Source: Candidatus Saccharimonadota bacterium (lineage in GTDB: Bacteria > Patescibacteriota > Saccharimonadia > Saccharimonadales > UBA4665). From it: DNA of 33,527 nucleotides. Under the pieces are notes generated by a model. The model ran no database searches, was not told the origin of the DNA, and saw only the letters and a program-made list of their open reading frames with translations. Positions within the stretch are counted from its first letter, which is position 1; every line of letters starts with the position of its first letter. A program made the position numbers and the translations under genes. This document shows positions 10,602 to 25,914 of the stretch, in pieces. The stretch is taken from contig JAEUQV010000118.1 of the NCBI GenBank assembly GCA_016789655.1, positions 1 to 33,527 of the forward strand. Direction: 5' to 3'.

Positions 10602-11846
10602 CTATGGCTTAATTCCGTTAAATTCAAAGTGCATATAGTCTTTTATGCTATTCCAATCGCCACCCCACGAGAAACCATGATGATTAAAGGCATCTATAAA
10701 TGCTCGGGGCAAGTCATATGGTGCAGAAGAGGCTGTTGTATAAGGGTTTGTATCCCAGTTTATATCGCAGGCGACACCATAGGTATGGTAGCTGCGTAAA
10801 CCTATTTGGCCAGTTCCGTTCCCGTCAAATCTATAGCAACCCATCATACGAACTTTATAAGTGCTGCCATTGGTTTTTATTTCATTTGCGACAGCGCTTA
10901 AGCAACCAGATGCAAGTTGGTGTATTTTAACCGTTTTTCCAAGGAAATCCACATCTACCAGTTTTGCGGCTATCTCGGGGTGAGAGCTTGCGGTACCTGG
11001 AGCGCCATAGATTTGTTCTAGCTCTGTTTGGGAAAGCTGATGTCCGTTTCCGCCAGCTCCCGTGACGGGTGCGGTTACGTTGCAGGAGCCAGATGCAACC
11101 GCAGCAGACGCGCAATTTAGGTCGGCGGACGCTACGTTCTGCGCACCAGAGTCGACGGTAGCCGCAACAACACCATTGCCGAACGTAGTAAAGATATATT
11201 TTGCATTAGCTTGGCGCTCAGGTATACGCATGTGCCCAGAGACTTCAAAGGTTGCCTCAAAATCATACACTGCTTGATTAATGCTAGCTTCATCACTAGT
11301 AGTGAGCGTTTTTAACTTTGTAAGGCTAGAGCTATGTGTTGAGTTTAGCTCTTTTGCTATAAATGCTAGCTGTATCCCTAAATCGCTGCGGGTGGTTTTA
11401 TTTTCGGTTGCGTACTTAGTTAGTTCCGATAAGCGGGCTCCAAGCCACTGTGCGATACCGTATGCGCCGCTTGATGGATTTACGGCGGTCGTTGAGAGGT
11501 TTTGCCCACCCTCCTCCATAATCACCCCCACTATTACCGAAGCCTGTACCGGTGTAAGGTCTAGATTTTGAACGAAATAGTTATACGCTTTTTCTTGATT
11601 GTTCTTGCCTGTTAGCGATGTGGTAATGATACTTGCGGCCGAAGCACTGCTCCCGCAACCATCGTCCGGTACCCAGTTCTCCCACCCACCAAATATTGCA
11701 TCACAATCAAGTTGAGCCATTCCCTTTGGACAATCCATAGCCCAGGTTTTGGAAACGGGTAATACCATAACCATATTGACACTCAAAACAATAACTATCA
11801 CGATAGATACAAAAGAACAAAATTTCGATGATTTTTTTCTACCCAT
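10602..11846 (-). CDS. Two-domain peptidoglycan hydrolase: phage-type lysozyme plus M15-like peptidase
   Basis: The protein has 414 residues. An N-terminal signal peptide or anchor (about 10-36, cleavage possibly after TWA) is followed by a lysozyme-like domain (about 82-220) of the tail-lysozyme type: 'TPVQASVIVGVIMEEGGQNL' with candidate catalytic Glu111/112, then 'NPSSGAYGIAQWLGARLSEL'. A Ser/Ala/Gly-rich linker leads to a C-terminal domain (about 270-414) with SYHTYGVACDINWD (His354, Asp361) and 'GFSWGGDW..IKDYMHFEF' (His406), the zinc ligands expected of M15/VanY-like peptidases. The two domains would cut glycan and peptide of peptidoglycan. Its ATG overlaps the upstream stop as TAATG, which implies translational coupling. 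T4SSs commonly carry such enzymes to pass through the wall. Confidence 0.85.
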   Translation of the reverse strand: MGRKKSSKFCSFVSIVIVIVLSVNMVMVLPVSKTWAMDCPKGMAQLDCDAIFGGWENWVPDDGCGSSASAASIITTSLTGKNNQEKAYNYFVQNLDLTPVQASVIVGVIMEEGGQNLSTTAVNPSSGAYGIAQWLGARLSELTKYATENKTTRSDLGIQLAFIAKELNSTHSSSLTKLKTLTTSDEASINQAVYDFEATFEVSGHMRIPERQANAKYIFTTFGNGVVAATVDSGAQNVASADLNCASAAVASGSCNVTAPVTGAGGNGHQLSQTELEQIYGAPGTASSHPEIAAKLVDVDFLGKTVKIHQLASGCLSAVANEIKTNGSTYKVRMMGCYRFDGNGTGQIGLRSYHTYGVACDINWDTNPYTTASSAPYDLPRAFIDAFNHHGFSWGGDWNSIKDYMHFEFNGIKP

Positions 11847-15316: not shown

Positions 15317-17233
15317 TTAGCTTAAGTTATTAGTGCTCCCCGGGAACAGTTGATTTTGGAGGTCTATGGTACCTTGAGATTGATCCAGCTCTCCTTGTTT
15401 CATGGCTTGAACTTGCTGAGGGTTGGTGGTTATGAGGCTGGTTTCGGTGGGGCTGGCAACGACCTGTATATGTACGTGGTTTTGCCCGGCAAAGAATAGC
15501 CCCTGCCCTACCGGGAATTGGCCGAGGCGCTTCTTTTCTTCGGCAGTAAGCTTAAACACATCACTCAAGACATCTACGGCACTACTCGACTGTTTGAGTA
15601 GTATCTGCATGCTGGCGTTTGCTACAATGGCGCGGCCCATGCGTGAGCCCATAAAGTCTTCGACGTCCTGCGTTATGGTGGTTATGCCTAGGTTATATTT
15701 GCGGGCGCGCTTAGCGAGGCTAAAAAGGAAGTTAGCACTATCTTCATATTTCATGAGCTGCCAAGCCTCGTCAACGATGAGCATGCGGCGTTTCATATCG
15801 CTCTTGGTTTTATTCCAAATAAAGCTTAGTACGATGTACATTGCTACGGGCCGCAACTCATCTTCTAGGTCGCGAATATTGAACACTACCAAGGGGTTAT
15901 TGACGTTTATATTGCTCTGCTGGCTGAATATACCTGCGAAGGTACCGCTAGTATATTTGCGTAGTCTTTGAGCCAGCTGTGGTCCGTTGCCGCCCATGTG
16001 CAGTAAGGTGTCATACAAATCTGAAATCGTCGGGGGCGTGGCATTGTGCGTCAGCGGGTCTTGCGTAATGCCGGCCCGGGCGTATGTATCGATGAGCGCT
16101 GCATCAAGATCGGCTTCCTCGGTAGGTGTAAGTGCAGGGACGAGGGCGCCGTTACCGCCAAGCATTTGCGCTTGAGCGCCACCCATCATTAAGCGAAGCA
16201 ATCCGTGCAGTGTGATAAGGTTGCTACGCAACGCGTTGTCGGCTTCTTCGTTGTCTACGACCTGGGGAAGATCAAACGGGTTTATGCGTGTGTTTGAGTT
16301 CAGGCTTAGACGCACATAGGCTCCGGCAACGGCATCACACATACGTTCATACTCGTTTTCGGGGTCAATTATGAATATTTCGGTGCCAAACATGAGGCTT
16401 CGCAGTGCTTCGAGCTTTACAGTAAAGCTTTTACCGGCGCCCGACTTTGCAAATACCACCGAGTTGCCATTTTCTAGACTAAACCTATCGAAGATTACCA
16501 ACCCCGAGTTGTGCATATTAATCCCGTACAAAATACCATTATCCTGGCTGAGGTCGGCGCTAGTGAACGGAAAGCTAGTGCTAATGGCGCCAGTGCTCAT
16601 GTTTCGGCGTATCTGTAGTAGGTCAGACATTTGTGGTATTACGCTATTAAGCCCCTGTTCTTGCTGCGATGTTGCGGGCTTACTGTAGACAAGCTGTTGC
16701 CCCAGCATGCTTTCGACCTTGTGGCTTATGAACTCTAGCTCATCCATGCTGCCGCCGTAGATGGTGAAATACAATCCAAAGCGGAAGAAGCGTTCTTCAC
16801 CCACCTGGAGTTTGTCGCGCATTTCTTCGGCATCAAGAATCTGGGCTTGTTTTGCGGGGTCGCGCACCCTACCCTTTTCGGAGTCGATTTGTAATCCTGC
16901 CTCAAGTTGAGTGACTTTCTTGCGCAAATTCTCGAGCACCACCTGACTTTCCACGGGGTAAACATATATGGACATATCCATAACTTCATCTAGATTGACT
17001 AGGCCACTCAACCAGCCTGTATAAATTTGCCGAGGATAGCCGTAGACGTAATAGGTACGAGCATAGCGGGTTCCTAGCTGAAAATGTGTGCCGAAAAACT
17101 CTAGACTACTTGGTGCGATAAAGTCACGTAAGGCTGTTATGCCCTTTCGAAAAGCTTCGTTTACTTCGGCTTGCTCTCTGGCTCTTTGGGCCTGCGCAAG
17201 CGCCACCGGGTCTAGTGCTGGCTTCTTTGCCAT
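15317..17233 (-). CDS. virB4: VirB4/TraC-family T4SS ATPase
   Basis: The protein has 638 residues. An N-terminal region (about 30-200) typical of VirB4 precedes a RecA-like ATPase with Walker A AKSGAGKS (262-269) and Walker B MLIVDEA (484-490), followed by 'WQLMKYEDSANFLFSLAKRARKYNLGITTITQDVEDFM', a strongly conserved VirB4 block. 'FIIDPENEYERM' is also a family mark. VirB4 hexamers energise pilus assembly and substrate translocation at the inner membrane. A good Shine-Dalgarno (GGAGG) lies in the loop of a small hairpin before the ATG. The protein is shorter than classic VirB4 (about 800 residues), and the previous gene may supply the missing N-domain. Confidence 0.95.
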   Translation of the reverse strand: MAKKPALDPVALAQAQRAREQAEVNEAFRKGITALRDFIAPSSLEFFGTHFQLGTRYARTYYVYGYPRQIYTGWLSGLVNLDEVMDMSIYVYPVESQVVLENLRKKVTQLEAGLQIDSEKGRVRDPAKQAQILDAEEMRDKLQVGEERFFRFGLYFTIYGGSMDELEFISHKVESMLGQQLVYSKPATSQQEQGLNSVIPQMSDLLQIRRNMSTGAISTSFPFTSADLSQDNGILYGINMHNSGLVIFDRFSLENGNSVVFAKSGAGKSFTVKLEALRSLMFGTEIFIIDPENEYERMCDAVAGAYVRLSLNSNTRINPFDLPQVVDNEEADNALRSNLITLHGLLRLMMGGAQAQMLGGNGALVPALTPTEEADLDAALIDTYARAGITQDPLTHNATPPTISDLYDTLLHMGGNGPQLAQRLRKYTSGTFAGIFSQQSNINVNNPLVVFNIRDLEDELRPVAMYIVLSFIWNKTKSDMKRRMLIVDEAWQLMKYEDSANFLFSLAKRARKYNLGITTITQDVEDFMGSRMGRAIVANASMQILLKQSSSAVDVLSDVFKLTAEEKKRLGQFPVGQGLFFAGQNHVHIQVVASPTETSLITTNPQQVQAMKQGELDQSQGTIDLQNQLFPGSTNNLS

Positions 17234-18386: not shown

Positions 18387-19589
18387 TTACCTCAGCGTTA
18401 CAACGACTTCGCCGTCATCGCTTGCCACGTCTTTCTTGGCTTGGCGAGCTAACGTTGCGACGTCAAGATCGTCATTGCTTGCTAGGCTCATTATAGCAGC
18501 CTGTTTTGTGGAAGTCACTTGTGCTTTTGTCTGCATTTCCCGTGCAGCTTCCTCGGCTTCGCGCAATGCGGTTTCAGCCTCTTGGGCGGCTACTTCAGCT
18601 TTTGCAGCTTCCTCGGCAGCTTTTATTTCGGCGGGGGTCATCACATGCTTCAAGTGGCCTTCTGCTACTGCTTGACTGACATTTTCGGCTTTAAACTTTT
18701 CGACCAACGCTTCTTCGTCCGCTGTTGGAACAGCAGCCTGAGGCACGATGGGAAGTGCATATGCTGGCGTGACACCAGGTGCGACCACCGGAGATATTGC
18801 AGATATATTTGTACCACGTGGCTGAGCGGGCGGTGGCAAAAACCAATAGTTGTTTGTTTGCTGGGGTTGGGTTTGTGGTTGCGGTTGAGCGGGTTGTGGT
18901 GTGGGTGTAATAGGTATGCTTGGCTGTGGCACCGGGCTGACGGGAGCTTGCATCTGCTGGATTAAGTGCTGACGCTGTGCTGCTGCCGCGTTAACTATCA
19001 TGCTATCGAAGTTTTGGGCAACTTTGTTGGCACGGGCATCGAGTATGTCGTCGGAGGCGCGTATATCTACATTGCTCACGTCTTGCGGCAGGCTTGACGC
19101 GTCAACAAGCCTGTCGGAGACGACAAACGTTGCTTGCGAGGCGTTCATCATATTGACATTAGTATTTTTGACGACCCAACCACGACTATCAATAGTGTCT
19201 GCAAGAGCTCGCAGGCGGCTGTGTACTTCGTTTTGGCTTAGGCCGTCAGTAAAGCTCTTTTCTATACGCTTTGGTACAGTGATAGTCACAAGCTCTTTCG
19301 CGCCTGCCTGATCCCAAATGCGCTTACGGGGCTTGAGCATGAAGCGAAGTTTAGCTATGGCCCATACCTCAGTCGGTTGGTCGCCATGCCACGGAATGGC
19401 CAAAAATGCAGTGAAAAGGGCGGGCGGCACAAAGAATAACAGCAGAAATGGTACATTTTTCGTGAACGCAAAAAAAGACAAATAGCCAAAGAACACCGTT
19501 ATCCCCGCGTAAATAAACTGCCGCAGCGTTAACGGTCCGACAAGCTTGTCTTCCGCCTCAACATCCTGAAGTACCTTATATGTCGCCAT
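18387..19589 (-). CDS. PrgI-family (VirB3-like) T4SS inner-membrane protein
   Basis: The protein has 400 residues. The first 75 match the PrgI pattern: 'YKVLQDVEAEDKLVGPLTLRQFIYAGITVFFGYL', then a second TM 'VPFLLLFFVPPALFTAFLAI', then 'WAIAKLRFMLKPRKRIWD'. PrgI/VirB3 is a small inner-membrane partner of VirB4. This one carries a long extra tail: a conserved soluble part to about 205, a Pro/Gln-rich linker (about 210-270), and an Ala/Glu-rich helical segment (about 300-370) likely to form a coiled coil. It heads the PrgI-TraC-VirB4 block directly after the RAYT cassette. AAGGTG lies just before the ATG. Confidence 0.88.
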   Translation of the reverse strand: MATYKVLQDVEAEDKLVGPLTLRQFIYAGITVFFGYLSFFAFTKNVPFLLLFFVPPALFTAFLAIPWHGDQPTEVWAIAKLRFMLKPRKRIWDQAGAKELVTITVPKRIEKSFTDGLSQNEVHSRLRALADTIDSRGWVVKNTNVNMMNASQATFVVSDRLVDASSLPQDVSNVDIRASDDILDARANKVAQNFDSMIVNAAAAQRQHLIQQMQAPVSPVPQPSIPITPTPQPAQPQPQTQPQQTNNYWFLPPPAQPRGTNISAISPVVAPGVTPAYALPIVPQAAVPTADEEALVEKFKAENVSQAVAEGHLKHVMTPAEIKAAEEAAKAEVAAQEAETALREAEEAAREMQTKAQVTSTKQAAIMSLASNDDLDVATLARQAKKDVASDDGEVVVTLR

Positions 19590-19658: not shown

Positions 19659-20273
19659 TTAGCGATCCGCCAGATCATACTTTATTTCTTCCAGCATCTG
19701 CTTAACATCTTCGTAGTCATCCATAAACTCTGTGTATGTCGTGGGCGACTCAAATAAATCGAGTATTTTGCGTGGCCTTACCCAGGGTTCTGTACGTTTA
19801 CCGATGTAAGTCAGATAGCTTGAGTGAGGATATCGCCTCCAGTAGCGGGGGTTTAGGTGAATGTAGCGTGAAATATGCTGGAGGTAGCTATCGGTGTCGA
19901 TACGGCTAGCTTTATAGCGAGATTCAAAGAGCGAGCCCGACCGCCCATACTTTCGGTTGAAGTAGCTACTATAGCTGGTAAGCAATGAGCGCATGAACTG
20001 CGGCATAATTCCCCTGTCGCTCTGATAGATAAGCATATGAAAGTGATTGCCCATCAGGCAGTAAGCCAGGAGTTCTAGACTGTCTGTAAAATTTGGGTAA
20101 GGCACTCCCGCAGTATTCAGCCGGTTGTCTGGAGTGAGGTATCGTTCGAGTAGCGAAATAAAGAAAGCATAATCTTCCGTGTCCACAAAAATAGGCTGCC
20201 GACTAGCTCCCCGCGCGTAGACGTGGTAATAAGAAAGTGGCAAGTCGATTTTAGCGGTATTTTTTGACGGCAC
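19659..20273 (-). CDS. REP-associated tyrosine transposase (Y1/IS200-like, HUH)
   Basis: The protein has 204 residues. The HUH motif is NHFHML ('LLAYCLMGNHFHMLIYQ', about residues 73-79), and the N-terminal 'YYHVYARGASRQPIF' is typical of the RAYT/Y1_Tnp superfamily. The catalytic tyrosine is probably in 'SYLQHISRYIHLNP' (about 127-142). These enzymes cut and join single-stranded DNA next to hairpins such as REP elements. Both flanks carry matching hairpin-forming repeats, supporting a cis-acting enzyme. It starts with GTG. A promoter-like pair lies just upstream and would make a leaderless mRNA. The gene appears intact. Confidence 0.9.
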   Translation of the reverse strand: MPSKNTAKIDLPLSYYHVYARGASRQPIFVDTEDYAFFISLLERYLTPDNRLNTAGVPYPNFTDSLELLAYCLMGNHFHMLIYQSDRGIMPQFMRSLLTSYSSYFNRKYGRSGSLFESRYKASRIDTDSYLQHISRYIHLNPRYWRRYPHSSYLTYIGKRTEPWVRPRKILDLFESPTTYTEFMDDYEDVKQMLEEIKYDLADR

Positions 20274-20424: not shown

Positions 20425-23277
20425 TTACGGCGTATTGCCTGCATTTGGATCGGGCGGTGGTGTACCCTTTCCTTGGATCTGTGCTTGTGTCCATTCTTTC
20501 TTTCGAGCCGTGAACTTCTTTATGCTTTCTGGGCTGGCCTGGTCAGCTGTGTGTAGATTGCCAGAAGAATCTGAGAACTGAACAATATTGCCTTGCAGGT
20601 GATTCTTAACATCTTGGTGTGTTACTTCTCGTCCAGCATCTTCGGCAGCACGGAGAAGTTTTTCGGCCTCTTTCTTTACCTCCGGGTGCATAGCTGCAAG
20701 ATCATTACGATCAAACGCTTTCTCCTTCATCACATCGGCATAGTATTCGCTATTGCCCTGCCCAGAATACATTTGCGCCTCATGTATGTCTGCGGCTGCG
20801 GCATATTCCGCTATCCACGTATCGGCCCCATTTTCGCCGAGTAAATTATCTACGACTGATCCATCTTCCTTCGTATAAGTACCGCCTGCTTTGGTATTTC
20901 CCGTTTTACTTACCTTAAGTCGCTCGCTCATTATTTTTGCCGTCTTCTTTACCGCACGAGAGTTTGCTGAGGTTTGTCCACTGGCCGCCGTCTCTTTGTA
21001 CATGTTCGCATTACCACCTTTGCGATGTTCTGCTAACTGAGCGGCTGTTAATCGCCCGCCAGCAACTTGGTTGTAATAATCAACATGCGATCCGAAGGAG
21101 CCGAGCTGGTTGTCGGCCCTTGCTTTGTTTGAGCGCTCTAAGATGGCAAAATCATCTGTTCTGGCAATGCCGTCTTGAAAGACCTTCCTAAGAACATTGT
21201 CTTTTGCGGCTTGTATTTCATCTTCGTCTGCACCGACTTTATTGGCGACTCCATCCCATGCGCCATTGTCGGCCGTAACCATGTTATGCAATGAAGATCT
21301 TCGCAGCGAAGTGCTGCCTATAGTCGATTGGTAGCCTGCCTCTAATTTTGCAATCTTTTCGTCTGCTTCATGTATAATTTCATCATCAGTCTTCGTGGTC
21401 CCGTTTGCATGCTTATCGGTACCGTTGCCACGCATTCGATTTAGGTAGAGTTGCCTAAACTCTTGCCGGCTTGTCGCCTGGAGGCCTATGATATTTGCAT
21501 CGGTGTCGCCACCGACATGGTGCATTCCTTCCTCTGCCTTTTTCTTGGAGGCATCTACCATGAGTTTTTCTCGAGCTTCCTCGTAGCGAGCCCTGTCTGC
21601 CTTGCTAAAACCGAGTCCACCCTGTCTTGCCAAGGCAGTCCTGCCTGCGTACGATTGCACAAAGCGTCCAATCTTAGAATTGTTGCCTTTTGCCTGTGCG
21701 GCGTACTCGCCCTTGCGGTAGGCTTTGGTGTCTTGGCGGAACTTGCGGCTGCGGTCGAATAGACCGCGGCTCTTGTCGTTGGCTATAGAGAATATGGTTG
21801 TCATAAGCCCGCCGGCTAACTTAAATGCGAATGGTAGCATAAAATACGGCGCAAAATACACGATAACGGCGGTAAATTTCATGCTGGCGTTCCCCGTAGC
21901 AGCCGCAACACGCGCCAAAGCGTCGCCAGATGCTAGGAATGCCATGATAATCGGGAACATTATAAGCGATGTTACGAAAGTATTTTTCCAAAACGACCAC
22001 AGTTTTTGTGTACCAGGCAATACATAGGCGGCTATGGCTAGGGGCGCGAAAATAATGCAAGTCATGATTATTATTTCTCGAACATAAAGCACCAACAAAC
22101 CAATCAAAACCGCTAGAATGATGGACCCTAATAGCGCCAGGACACCACTTATGCCCAGGAGTACCGCACTGATAGCACCAACACCTATCGCTCCGCCAAA
22201 GAAGCCCCACTCGAGCATCCCATTTAACCCTGTCCAGTTATTCGGCAGGCTATTAAAGGGCGACATCATCAGGTCGTGTGTGACCAACCCAAGCGTATTT
22301 GTCATGTCTAGAGCTAGTTTTAATAGGGGCCATGAAAGAGCAATACCTATCAGTGCTACACCAATGCGGGGCAATAGTTTTCGTATGGTGTATGCATCGA
22401 GTATTTCAAGACCCATAGCCTGGCTTATTATCATAAAGAGTCCTGCAATTATAATTAGCGTAAGCCCAAGATTTCGGAAGCTGCTCCATGATTTTTGAAA
22501 CTCTTTGCTAAATATATCTTCGGTTGAGATAAACAAAATATCTGCGACACGGTCACCCAGCCATTTGGCGAACTGCGCCATACCACCACTTATGGGGCAC
22601 ATCAGCCACGACATTGCTATATCGCCAGCGCCATCGGGCTTGAGCCAGCCGCAAGAATTTGACCCAGCAGTTGTTGATGCCGTACTGGCACCTTCAACGG
22701 TACTTGATCCACCCGTTAACGCATCGACGCTGCTGCTTTGAGTTGTTAGGGCTTCAAGGATTTTTGCAGAATTGTCTTTGTCTGTACACTCCGAAATCGT
22801 ACCAAGGTCGAAATTGAAATTTTTATATGCGTCACTCTTCACGAACGAGTCAAAACAGGTATTAAACTTTGTAACGATTGCTTCCGCGCAGCTCGTTGGT
22901 ACACCGACCGATCCACCGCAAAGGGCCGTTGCTTGGGTATATACGGCGCCTGCGTAGGCTGCTTTAGCATATTCCAGCTTTGATGCATTGTTCGCGGGCT
23001 TAGGTGTGCTCGTGCAAGTGACGGTCATCGAGTTGGAGCTACAGTAACCCTGGTCGAGGCACGCCAGCATAAGCGCATGTTGTGTTCGATTCTGCAAGAT
23101 TGACGAAGCAGACTTGCCATTTAGCTGTGCGCACTCAGCCGCAGATGCAGCCAAAGCTGGTGCGGGCTGAAATACTGCTAGAAACGAAGACGCTAGTACA
23201 ATGGCTATAAAAAAGACGGGTGCTATGCGCCCCATGGGTTTATGACCGGTGAAGTTGAAAGTGCCCACGGCTACCAT
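20425..23277 (-). CDS. VirB6/TrbL-like polytopic T4SS protein
   Basis: The protein has 950 residues. A signal peptide is clear from Met15 onward (MGRIAPVFFIAIVLASSFLA, cleavage near ALA), so translation may begin at 23235 rather than 23277; neither start has a Shine-Dalgarno. A Cys-containing exported region (about 45-245) is followed by five or more TM segments (about 260-490), including 'LGLTLIIIAGLFMIISQAMGL' and 'LALLGSIILAVLIGLLVLYVREIIIMTCIIFAPLAIAAYVLP'. Then comes a long polar, Lys/Glu/Asn-rich tail (about 500-950). This layout matches VirB6/TrbL channel proteins with extended C termini. It is divergent from the pilin array and precedes prgI and virB4, from which the RAYT cassette separates it. 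Confidence 0.8.
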   Translation of the reverse strand: MVAVGTFNFTGHKPMGRIAPVFFIAIVLASSFLAVFQPAPALAASAAECAQLNGKSASSILQNRTQHALMLACLDQGYCSSNSMTVTCTSTPKPANNASKLEYAKAAYAGAVYTQATALCGGSVGVPTSCAEAIVTKFNTCFDSFVKSDAYKNFNFDLGTISECTDKDNSAKILEALTTQSSSVDALTGGSSTVEGASTASTTAGSNSCGWLKPDGAGDIAMSWLMCPISGGMAQFAKWLGDRVADILFISTEDIFSKEFQKSWSSFRNLGLTLIIIAGLFMIISQAMGLEILDAYTIRKLLPRIGVALIGIALSWPLLKLALDMTNTLGLVTHDLMMSPFNSLPNNWTGLNGMLEWGFFGGAIGVGAISAVLLGISGVLALLGSIILAVLIGLLVLYVREIIIMTCIIFAPLAIAAYVLPGTQKLWSFWKNTFVTSLIMFPIIMAFLASGDALARVAAATGNASMKFTAVIVYFAPYFMLPFAFKLAGGLMTTIFSIANDKSRGLFDRSRKFRQDTKAYRKGEYAAQAKGNNSKIGRFVQSYAGRTALARQGGLGFSKADRARYEEAREKLMVDASKKKAEEGMHHVGGDTDANIIGLQATSRQEFRQLYLNRMRGNGTDKHANGTTKTDDEIIHEADEKIAKLEAGYQSTIGSTSLRRSSLHNMVTADNGAWDGVANKVGADEDEIQAAKDNVLRKVFQDGIARTDDFAILERSNKARADNQLGSFGSHVDYYNQVAGGRLTAAQLAEHRKGGNANMYKETAASGQTSANSRAVKKTAKIMSERLKVSKTGNTKAGGTYTKEDGSVVDNLLGENGADTWIAEYAAAADIHEAQMYSGQGNSEYYADVMKEKAFDRNDLAAMHPEVKKEAEKLLRAAEDAGREVTHQDVKNHLQGNIVQFSDSSGNLHTADQASPESIKKFTARKKEWTQAQIQGKGTPPPDPNAGNTP

Positions 23278-23379: not shown

Positions 23380-23407
23380 TGTGCCCGCGCTGTCGGGTCG
23401 GTATAGT
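23380..23407 (+). promoter_or_regulatory. Possible promoter of the pilin array
   Basis: TTGTGC (23380-23385) and TATAGT (23402-23407) are spaced 16 bp apart; the ATG follows 11 nt later, leaving a very short leader. The 141-bp divergent gap also has to hold the VirB6-like promoter, which I could not place. Confidence 0.35.
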
Positions 23408-23418
23408 TATATATTGTA

Positions 23419-24222
23419 ATGAACTTGCTAAAACGAACATTGGTCATAAGTCTTTTGCTTTTCGGTTTTAGCATAATCGGAAGCATTGCCGTTGCCTCAC
23501 AAACCCTTGCCCTTCAGCCAGGTCAAAAAGCCAATTGTGGTACAGGTGAAAACCTTCAGACCGATCAGCGCGTATGTTGCCCCGCTGGTACCGGCGCAAC
23601 GGCAAGCTCGTGTTTTTATGGAAAATATCTGAACCCCGCCATAAAAGTACTAAGCGCATTGGCTGGAGTGGGCGTGGTCATAGGTATCTTGATTGGAGCT
23701 ATACAATACGCTAGTTCCGGGGGTGACCCGCAGAAGACCGCTCAGGGTAAGGGAAAAATTGTTAAATCTATAGTGGCACTTATTTTTTTCATGTTCTTAT
23801 ATAGCGGCATTCAGTTTATGTCTCCTGGCGGAGTAAAGAACAATACCCCGTCTGGCAGTGGCGCGACTATTGCAGCTCGTTGTATACAAGGTACATTTTT
23901 GGGCATTAAGCCCTGGTTCGCGTACTTGCCAGATTCTGCTTTCGCGCCAGGCACGTGCAACATAGATGACTTTGACTTATTTAGCGTATCTGATGGCCTG
24001 GTGCCAGTTGCTCTCGCCGTTGCAGACGATCTTGTGCGTGTAGCTGGGCTAGTTGCTGTGGCATATGTGATTGTCGGTGGTGTGCAGTTTGTGACGAGCC
24101 AAGGAGAGCCGGATCGAACAAAGCGTGCCCGAGAGACTATCATTAATGCCCTCATCGGTGTTGTTATGGCCATAGTAGCGGCAAGCGTAGTATCATTTGT
24201 GGGTCAAAGGTTGTCAGGATAA
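23419..24222 (+). CDS. Double VirB2/TrbC-like pilin protein
   Basis: The protein has 267 residues. A signal peptide (about 1-32, 'LVISLLLFGFSIIGSIAVASQTLA') precedes a Cys-containing segment. The first pilin-like unit has TM 'VLSALAGVGVVIGILIGAIQYASSGGDPQKTAQGKGKIVKSIVALIFFMFLYSGIQFM'. After a roughly 70-residue spacer comes a second unit, 'LVRVAGLVAVAYVIVGGVQFVTSQGEPDRTKRARETIINALIGVVMAIVAASVVSFV'. Each unit is TM - Gly-Asp/Glu-Pro-x-x-(K/R) loop - TM, the hallmark of VirB2/TrbC-like pilins in Gram-positive and CPR T4SSs. It therefore looks like two fused pilin folds. It is the first of five tandem pilin genes, divergent from VirB6. Confidence 0.8.
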   Translation: MNLLKRTLVISLLLFGFSIIGSIAVASQTLALQPGQKANCGTGENLQTDQRVCCPAGTGATASSCFYGKYLNPAIKVLSALAGVGVVIGILIGAIQYASSGGDPQKTAQGKGKIVKSIVALIFFMFLYSGIQFMSPGGVKNNTPSGSGATIAARCIQGTFLGIKPWFAYLPDSAFAPGTCNIDDFDLFSVSDGLVPVALAVADDLVRVAGLVAVAYVIVGGVQFVTSQGEPDRTKRARETIINALIGVVMAIVAASVVSFVGQRLSG

Positions 24223-24226
24223 ACAT

Positions 24227-24532
24227 ATGTATAAACTATATTCTCAACTGGTAGCCGCTGTAGCAGAGATCGACGCCAGCCCCCTTCCCAACAGCACAAA
24301 GACAGGTGATGTGGGCGTGGCAGTACTGCCGGTCGTTTTGAACATCGTTTTTGGCGTAATTGGGTCGGTGGCTTTGCTGATTATCGTTATATCGGGCATG
24401 CGTTATATACTTGCCGCTGGCGATCCGGGCAAGATGGCAACCGCCAAGAAGGGTGTGCTGTTTGCGGTGGTAGGTCTTCTGATCGCACTATCTGGTTTTA
24501 GTATCGTAGCATTTGTCGTAAAGGGGATATAA
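24227..24532 (+). CDS. VirB2/TrbC-like pilin 2
   Basis: The protein has 101 residues from ATG 24227, with AGGAT 6 nt upstream; a longer GTG reading from 24197 overlaps the previous gene and is unlikely. Two TM segments flank the loop 'SGMRYILAAGDPGKMATAKKG'. Unlike the other copies it lacks a clear cleavable signal peptide; its N terminus is only weakly hydrophobic. It begins 4 nt after pilin 1 ends. Pilins of this type polymerise into, or line, the T4SS conduit. Confidence 0.8.
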   Translation: MYKLYSQLVAAVAEIDASPLPNSTKTGDVGVAVLPVVLNIVFGVIGSVALLIIVISGMRYILAAGDPGKMATAKKGVLFAVVGLLIALSGFSIVAFVVKGI

Positions 24533-24534
24533 GA

Positions 24535-24921
24535 GTGTACACTATTACTAGGCTTGTACTGATTTTCATTACAACATTTTTTTGTCTTGTATTTTTACCC
24601 ACATCCGTATCTGCAGAAGATCCTTTAAACCAGGCGTGTAGCGGCAATGCTAGTGATTCCTCTGTATGCCAGGATAGGTCTTCTACGAACCCACTTACCG
24701 GGACTGATGGTGTGCTGTATAGAGTGACCCTTATAATTGCAAGCATATCAGGAATTATTGCTGTTACTTTGATCATGGTATCTGGGTTCCGTTACATCAC
24801 GTCTGGCGGTGACAGCCAAAAGATTGCCAGCGCTAAAAATACGCTCATAGGAGCGATTATTGGACTAGTGGTTATAGCTTTGGCACAAACTATCATTACG
24901 TTCGTCCTAAGTAGGCTATAA
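24535..24921 (+). CDS. VirB2/TrbC-like pilin 3
   Basis: The protein has 128 residues, with a GTG start 2 nt after pilin 2 and AAGGGG upstream. A signal peptide (about 4-24, 'LVLIFITTFFCLVFLPTSVSA') is followed by a short Cys-containing outside segment. The pilin core follows: TM 'VTLIIASISGIIAVTLIMVSGFRYITSGG', loop GGDSQKIASAKN, TM 'LIGAIIGLVVIALAQTIITFVLSRL'. The core is closely related to pilins 4 and 5. Confidence 0.85.
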   Translation: MYTITRLVLIFITTFFCLVFLPTSVSAEDPLNQACSGNASDSSVCQDRSSTNPLTGTDGVLYRVTLIIASISGIIAVTLIMVSGFRYITSGGDSQKIASAKNTLIGAIIGLVVIALAQTIITFVLSRL

Positions 24922-24922
24922 T
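24917..24922 (+). promoter_or_regulatory. Perfect -10 box for pilin 4, leaderless arrangement
   Basis: TATAAT overlaps the pilin 3 stop codon and ends 7 nt before the ATG at 24930; no Shine-Dalgarno is present. No -35 match is evident, so this may be chance, but the spacing recurs elsewhere in the window. Confidence 0.4.
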
Positions 24923-24929
24923 TCGTAGC

Positions 24930-25328
24930 ATGAAAAACATTACACACATACTTACCAACATATCATTCGTTGCGCTCGCCGTCTTGGGTACCATGGTATT
25001 CACCCCGGCACTTGCCTCTGCGGCAGACGCTAATAGGCAGGCCGTATGTGAGGCGATTGGACCAGTTGGCGGTGGGACGAATTGTGATTCGGCCAGTACT
25101 ACAGGTGTAAATTCCGTAATCAGTACCGGCCTTAACATATTCGCGACTATTATTGGACTCGTGGCTGTGGTTATGATTTTTATATCGGGTTACAAATATA
25201 TCACCTCCGGGGGCGATAGTAGCAAAGTTGCAAGCGCTAAGAGTACACTTATTTACGCTATCGTTGGAATTGTCGTTGCTGCTCTTGCGCAGGTAATAGT
25301 GAAGTTCGTACTAAGCAAAGCGAAGTAG
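24930..25328 (+). CDS. VirB2/TrbC-like pilin 4
   Basis: The protein has 132 residues. It has a signal peptide (about 1-30, ending ASA), a small loop with two cysteines ('AVCEAIG..GGGTNCDS'), and the core 'IFATIIGLVAVVMIFISGYKYITSGGDSSKVASAKSTLIYAIVGIVVAALAQVIVKFVLSK'. The paired cysteines in the exported loop are shared with pilins 3 and 5 and could form a disulphide. It is nearly identical in design to pilin 5, so these are recent paralogues. Confidence 0.87.
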   Translation: MKNITHILTNISFVALAVLGTMVFTPALASAADANRQAVCEAIGPVGGGTNCDSASTTGVNSVISTGLNIFATIIGLVAVVMIFISGYKYITSGGDSSKVASAKSTLIYAIVGIVVAALAQVIVKFVLSKAK

Positions 25329-25366
25329 TGGGCCGTAAGGCTCGGCACATTCTTTTTAGGGTCGTA

Positions 25367-25395
25367 TTGAAATTGCATTACGCAAATGGTATAAA
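25367..25395 (+). promoter_or_regulatory. Strong promoter of pilin 5
   Basis: TTGAAA (25367-25372), a 17-bp spacer ending in TGG, and TATAAA (25390-25395) form a near-consensus promoter with an extended -10 TG. The leader is about 35 nt with the Shine-Dalgarno AAAGGAACGG. This is the best promoter in the pilin region and suggests that pilin 5 is made separately, perhaps as the major subunit. Confidence 0.7.
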
Positions 25396-25435
25396 CTAAG
25401 GTAAATATAAAACTCTGAAAGGAACGGAATACGTC

Positions 25436-25864
25436 ATGTTAAAAAGTTTAAGGAATCTCATCGTTAGTCTTGCGGTTGTTGCCTCAATGGCTGCACCCGT
25501 AGCTGTAACAGGCGCAGTATATGCAGCAGAAAGCTCAAATCCAAGCGCAAGCGTTTGCGAAGGGGCGAGTAATCTCCAGATTAACACGAGCGTATCGACA
25601 TCAAACTGTGCGACCGACACTACCGCAACCGACAAAGTAAATTCAACTATCACTACTATCATCAACGTCTTCTCGACTATCGTGGGCGTGATAGCCGTAC
25701 TTATGATAATCTGGGGCGGCCTGCGCTACATTACTTCTGGTGGAGATAGTGGCAAAATTTCCAGTGCAAAGAATACCATTATCTATGCCCTTATTGGCCT
25801 AGTAGTCGTTGCTCTTGCTCAGTTCATTGTAAAATTTGTGCTCAGTAAAGTTACTGCCGATTAG
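25436..25864 (+). CDS. VirB2/TrbC-like pilin 5
   Basis: The protein has 142 residues. It has a signal peptide (about 1-30, ending VYAAE), an exported segment with two cysteines (about 40-60), then the core 'IINVFSTIVGVIAVLMIIWGGLRYITSGGDSGKISSAKNTIIYALIGLVVVALAQFIVKFVLSKV'. It has its own strong promoter and Shine-Dalgarno and is followed by two strong terminators, unlike the tightly packed pilins 1-4. It is a good candidate for the main pilus subunit; that ranking is inference. Confidence 0.88.
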   Translation: MLKSLRNLIVSLAVVASMAAPVAVTGAVYAAESSNPSASVCEGASNLQINTSVSTSNCATDTTATDKVNSTITTIINVFSTIVGVIAVLMIIWGGLRYITSGGDSGKISSAKNTIIYALIGLVVVALAQFIVKFVLSKVTAD

Positions 25865-25879
25865 CAAATTTCGTCTAAA

Positions 25880-25914
25880 AACTTAAAACGGCCCAAACAG
25901 GGCCGTTTTAAGTT
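25880..25914. terminator. Bidirectional terminator 1 (15-bp stem)
   Basis: Arms AACTTAAAACGGCCC and its exact complement surround the loop AAACA. A-rich 5' and T-rich 3' arms allow termination from both sides between convergent pilin 5 and hsp20. Confidence 0.8.

Follow-up and report, generated by a model that had tools for sequence, protein, structure and literature searches.

Why a single type IV secretion system (T4SS) locus should carry a row of different pilins is the question raised by positions 23419-25864 on the plus strand of the window, the 33,527-nucleotide stretch of Candidatus Saccharimonadota DNA analysed here. A PF18895 profile search of this segment finds five adjacent genes that comprise six T4SS_pilin units, two of them in the first gene. 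Tandem T4SS pilin arrays in Saccharibacteria are already published. Several pilins in the T4SS cluster of Southlakia epibionticum are reported to be essential (Wang et al. 2023, PMC10633639), and a 2025 FEMS review (PMC12857230) counts six pilins in S. epibionticum ML1 and describes pilin genes as reported essential. A survey of 383 assemblies describes 441 arrays of 2-11 genes and suggests adaptation to different hosts (Quinonero-Coronel et al. 2025, PMC12102498). The available portions of the published accounts of arrays make no mention of positional orthology, of fusions or of a separate promoter for the sixth pilin.

The genes of the array are designated P1 to P5 and the units pilins 1 to 6, with pilins 1 and 2 in P1 and pilins 3, 4, 5 and 6 in P2, P3, P4 and P5, respectively (Table 1). 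All five genes pass the curated cut-off of PF18895, the Pfam family T4SS_pilin ("Type IV secretion system pilin"), and P1 does so with two separate stretches, in agreement with the original prediction of five adjacent pilin genes and two units in the first. The further description of the genes as VirB2/TrbC-like holds in part: the cores align to the T4SS pilin profile, but the cut-off of the TrbC/VirB2 family PF04956 is passed by P5 only (32.5 bits vs 27.9), with P3 and P4 matching weakly below it and P1 and P2 giving no match. A "nearly identical core" had also been ascribed to the last three genes, which is too strong, as the 124-nt DNA cores of P3 and P5 are 63% and 70% identical to that of P4. 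Mean core identity between array positions is 33%, compared with a published average of 25%, and within-array identity is therefore low, as it is in Patescibacterial arrays. The start of P2 is most likely the ATG at 24227. Elsewhere in the source genome, a profile search gives one further weak pilin match.

Table 1. Features of the window by position; p3 to p6 denote position profiles, with the score of the matching profile followed by that of its closest competitor.
Feature	Coordinates	Strand	Evidence or remark
dnaA	4752..6146		T4SS locus of the array nearby, as in some Patescibacterial members
Wall hydrolase: phage-tail lysozyme domain fused to M15 D-Ala-D-Ala peptidase	10602..11846	-	PF18013 9e-25; PF13539 1.5e-18
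VirB4-like T4SS ATPase	15317..17233	-	TraG P-loop PF19044 1e-27
PrgI (VirB3-like) domain protein	18387..19589	-	PF12666 3e-11
Y1/IS200-type transposase, within the T4SS cluster between the VirB6-like and PrgI genes	19659..20273	-	PF01797
VirB6-like candidate, 950-residue polytopic membrane protein, divergent from array	20425..23277	-	Position and architecture only
P1, double pilin: pilin 1 (aa ~62-138) fused to pilin 2 (aa ~150-267)	23419..24222	+	PF18895 5e-16, two stretches; leave-one-genus-out profiles
P2, pilin 3: short, without signal peptide, without cysteine	24227..24532	+	PF18895 1.9e-7; p3 87 vs 60; topology
P3, pilin 4: GTG start, signal peptide, two exported cysteines (35, 45)	24535..24921	+	PF18895 7e-13; p4 105 vs 89
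P4, pilin 5: signal peptide, two exported cysteines (40, 52)	24930..25328	+	PF18895 1.5e-13; p5 104.5 vs p6 101
Predicted pilin 6 promoter: TTGAAA-17 nt-TATAAA, TGG extended -10	25367..25395	+	Sequence; conserved before position 6 across genera
P5, pilin 6: Shine-Dalgarno AAAGGAA, two exported cysteines (41, 58)	25436..25864	+	PF18895 8e-16; TrbC 1e-7; p6 124 vs 113
Intrinsic terminator-like hairpin 3' of array, perfect 15-nt arms	25880..25914	+	Inverted-repeat search

The surroundings of the array are those of a T4SS locus. As in S. epibionticum ML1 and other Patescibacteria (from the available portions of the published accounts), tandem VirB2-like PF18895 genes of low mutual identity stand beside virB4, PrgI and wall hydrolase genes. 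ML1 has six pilins, as do most arrays compared, whereas the window has six units in five genes with pilins 1 and 2 fused. The VirB4-like gene lies 6 kb from the array in the window. Among array-bearing relatives this VirB4 is 73-91% identical; it was found in 16/16 array-bearing genomes tested and, where these were compared by array coordinates, sits on the same contig at a distance of roughly 5-15 kb. Six of the 16 pilin-poor genomes tested are without this VirB4, and several others have it near a contig end; pilins are absent from 6/6 genomes found without VirB4. The VirB6-like candidate has no Pfam or NCBIfam match, and the wall hydrolase is a possible VirB1 substitute within the cluster. 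A divergent VirB4, with 36-39% identity, is found in some genomes of genus g23 (G045, G048, G059, G061), either by itself or in addition to another VirB4. Several of the g23 genomes with the divergent VirB4 have two pilin matches only, possibly belonging to a different mobile T4SS; stretches around the pilin matches of five such genomes were retrieved (L157-L161).

PF18895 matches are widespread among relatives, being present in 85/93 genomes of the family and in 177/198 genomes drawn from the order. For comparison, stretches of up to 20 kb around the arrays (less at contig ends) were taken from 80 relatives, 40 of the same family and 40 of other families; the relatives' data are MAGs, and start codons in the compared loci were set by rule. 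Exactly six units in one orientation are present in 38/41 family loci, the window included, a proportion that is not a census since these loci were selected for having pilin matches; two others have seven units and one is cut by a contig end. This recurrence places the pattern far beyond chance. The order of the six positions is kept across 14 other families, with a derived set or a seventh unit in some (f31, f37, f35). The original prediction had named decay of the units in related genomes as evidence against itself; it was looked for, and no decayed unit was seen in the arrays of the relatives examined. Judged by sequence, the six-part pilin set is standard in the order of the source organism.

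If the six units were recent duplicates, a given position would not be expected to be recognizable from one genus to the next. Profiles built leaving out one genus at a time assign units to the correct position in 38/38 cases for positions 1, 2, 3 and 6, in 29/38 for position 4 and in 27/38 for position 5, the errors being position 4 units assigned to 5 and position 5 units assigned to 6. Profiles built from the source family alone place 96/108 units correctly in 18 six-unit arrays from 14 other families, compared with a mean of 18 and a maximum of 36 in 10,000 shuffles. In a tree of 216 units, position 1 forms a single clade (support 100), as does position 2 (88), and position 3 requires two changes; positions 4, 5 and 6 require 6, 16 and 14; with shuffled labels the number is about 34. 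Profile recovery and tree together imply that, at a minimum, positions 1-4 and a 5/6 pair existed before the order arose. The tree does not fully separate pilin 5 from pilin 6, and the two may in part be able to replace each other or may have exchanged sequence. Outside Saccharimonadia, the position profiles do not separate the units of the arrays (margins of a few bits), and a six-position set is therefore not claimed phylum-wide; a genome of another order in the same class (L152) retains a clear position 1. Taken together, the six units look like old, position-specific orthologues and thus distinct machine parts instead of redundant copies, with the distinction less clean for pilins 5 and 6. 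The composite filament of the original prediction gains support from this.

The same profiles explain the double pilin. With the source genus left out, the first unit of P1 scores 92 bits with the position 1 profile (next best, 39) and the second 108 bits with the position 2 profile (next best, 62). In an alignment, the free pilin-1 proteins match the first half of P1, and their C-termini coincide with the PGG ahead of the linker. The exported linker carries Cys155/Cys180 together with the motif FLGIKPWFAYLP, the counterpart of the exported motif of free pilin-2 proteins (type FFGLxPWYxYL). From the scores, the alignment and the kept motif it follows that the double pilin is a gene fusion. The fused reading frame is present in 6/6 genus members examined (the window and L037-L041), and in the rest of the family each of the two pilins has a gene of its own, the two genes overlapping or lying almost end to end (median gap -1 nt). 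As origins of the double pilin, chance, assembly error and frameshift were rejected: six genomes of the genus, each assembled separately, have the frame uninterrupted, and the linker motif is conserved.

Other neighbours have been joined elsewhere: pilins 2 and 3 in L062, and pilins 3 and 4 in L096 and L105. Family f35 (L097, L102, L104) has a further fusion, in which a pilin-2-like motif occurs in the first unit. Given the even number of helices, the second hairpin in all these fusions would be able to enter the membrane in the usual orientation. Since only the loss of a stop codon is needed to join neighbours, the fusion alone is no proof that pilins 1 and 2 are in contact. Multi-unit pilins recur in other classes of the phylum, with three units in 358 aa in L142 (G288) and two units in 198 aa in L138 (G303). 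Also outside Saccharimonadia, a T4SS_pilin unit occurs in long open frames of up to 3312, 1588, 1243 and 710 aa (G305:C1:86515, G244:C86:11220, G258:C1:505966 and G275:C33); L148 and L156 are stretches retrieved for such long-frame proteins.

The layout of the array sets pilin 6 apart. Median gaps among pilins 1-5 range from -1 to 8.5 nt and the median gap between pilins 5 and 6 is 77 nt; in the order-wide set, five units stand ahead of the largest gap in 62/75 arrays. By these features, pilins 1-5 are predicted to be one tight, co-oriented operon. A separate promoter for the last gene had been proposed and is borne out: the window has TTGAAA-17-TATAAA with a TGn extension, and a promoter at this place is conserved in relatives, 71% of 38 arrays having a match of at least 9/12 ahead of pilin 6, compared with 21% in shuffles. 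Upstream of pilins 2-5 there is no comparable excess of promoter-like matches. The promoter scan of the window requires T at the last -10 position and for that reason missed TATAAA. Shine-Dalgarno matches of at least 4 nt are found at 92% of pilin-6 genes and at 11% of pilin-1 genes. The pilin-6 core is the most conserved of the set (62% between genera, compared with 40-50% at the other positions), and in 38/38 the number of cysteines in the N-terminal part of pilin 6 is exactly two. Pilin 6 is the probable major pilin: of the six it has the best ribosome-binding sites and the core with the highest conservation, and it has a conserved promoter to itself, all as would be expected of a major subunit. 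At the other end of the array, TATAGT occurs at 23402-23407, 11 nt before the ATG of P1, which has no Shine-Dalgarno sequence; as such sequences are also rare at the pilin-1 genes of relatives, the P1 message may be almost leaderless.

Hydropathy and structure models describe each unit as a helical hairpin of two helices joined by a short charged loop. Pilins 1, 4, 5 and 6 have signal peptides, and there are mostly none on 2 and 3. Both ends of each unit would be exported with the charged loop inside. In F TraA the loop points toward the lumen and the ends outward (PMC5018250), and by this analogy the cysteine-bearing N-terminal part of each unit would face the outside. VirB2/TrbC pilins share the signal peptide (in most units), the two hydrophobic helices and the short charged loop, and P5 passes the cut-off of PF04956. 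They differ in that the other units fall below it and in that the array provides several different pilins to one system in a monoderm host. Confidence in the structure models is moderate (pLDDT 75-77, pTM about 0.5). Fold comparison of the P5 and P1 models with the PDB produced nothing with an E below 0.8, and a sequence search of the PDB gave nothing useful. Among the fold matches listed is the conjugation pilus of Aeropyrum pernix (8dfu), an archaeal system that shares the two-helix hairpin subunit; the match is not significant (TM-score 0.61 on target, E 5.1) and serves as a lead only.

The array probably encodes a composite T4SS filament or conduit built from one major pilin and five fixed minor pilins. 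The pilin set of the Saccharibacterial T4SS would consist of six VirB2-like subunits that differ from one another, cannot stand in for each other and were already established when the order diversified, each two-helix hairpin being inserted via the Sec/YidC route. Pilin 6, made in excess, would polymerise on a VirB4/VirB6-like base into the main filament or conduit wall, and pilins 1-5, made in small and roughly equal amounts, would occupy fixed places, for example at the base, at the tip or in the first layer. The fusion could work in such an assembly because the second half of P1 would enter the membrane like a free pilin 2, with its exported PWF motif and cysteine pair kept; as free pilin 2 is usually without a signal peptide, no export requirement would be lost. 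A role in host contact or transport is suggested by the published essentiality of the locus in epibiotic growth. A conjugative pilus consists of pentamers stacked in a five-start arrangement, with a VirB6 pentamer beneath them and a VirB5 pentamer as the tip (PMC9259494). Because five pilins precede the pilin-6 promoter, it may be speculated that the five minor pilins form one hetero-pentameric layer that starts or caps a five-start filament and takes the place of the missing VirB5 tip, the 1-2 fusion marking two neighbours in the layer; this elaboration is decidedly doubtful.

The six paralogues might instead form a heteromeric T4SS membrane ring or pore, a six-part channel with fixed places and no pilus, much as paralogous hairpins make up the rings of rotary ATPases. 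Fixed neighbours of this kind would agree with orthologues that are fixed by position and with fusions that are in register, the available portions of the literature on the system describe no Saccharibacterial T4SS filament, and Gram-positive conjugation systems are described as generally without a pilus (PMC10633639). ATP synthase subunit c is also among the fold matches, although not significantly (E 3.4). A ring of equal parts is harder to reconcile with the separate promoter, strong Shine-Dalgarno sequence and higher conservation of pilin 6, which suggest unequal amounts, and with the seventh copies in several families, which are extra pilin-6-like units; overall, a ring appears rather unlikely. 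The double pilin had been proposed as a specialised cap or base of a two-layer conduit, for which its place at the head of the operon and its exported region, the longest of the set, could be cited. However, it consists of ordinary pilins 1 and 2, which are separate in other genera and in almost all relatives, and different neighbour pairs are fused in other lineages. A special part is contradicted by these observations and is scarcely credible.

A further reading, of a kind suggested for Patescibacteria by Quinonero-Coronel et al. 2025, takes the array as a store of alternative pilins that would serve host-range or antigenic variation. Its precedent is the Trw system of Bartonella, where tandem TrwL pilin paralogues in a T4SS are probably all co-expressed (PMC2610397), and the exported N-terminal regions of the present units do differ in length and sequence. 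The TrwL copies, however, are described as duplications under diversifying selection, whereas the Saccharibacterial positions are ancient and fixed, less clearly so for pilins 5 and 6. This fixed orthology across genera and families argues against variation at those levels. The genes are all co-oriented and tightly packed, and an inverted-repeat search found two terminator-like hairpins behind the array as the only notable repeats, with no sign of a phase switch and no recombination repeats. The "phase-specialised" filament once suggested for the locus likewise finds no support, given a co-oriented operon of pilins 1-5 that overlap or nearly touch and inverted repeats that are terminator-like only. 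A variant reservoir is very unlikely overall and is strongly disfavoured for positions 1-4.

Saccharibacterial T4SS pilins are reported, for S. epibionticum, to be essential for life on a host bacterium, and the published suggestion for their plurality is adaptation to different host strains. The fixed orthology of six positions across the order points to a machine of six different parts. The fusion is in effect a natural experiment that sets a 1:1 ratio of pilin 1 to pilin 2 and forces a topology on both. The analysis also provides a common numbering of pilins 1-6 that can be applied to S. epibionticum, and in any search for filaments pilin 6 is the subunit to look for.
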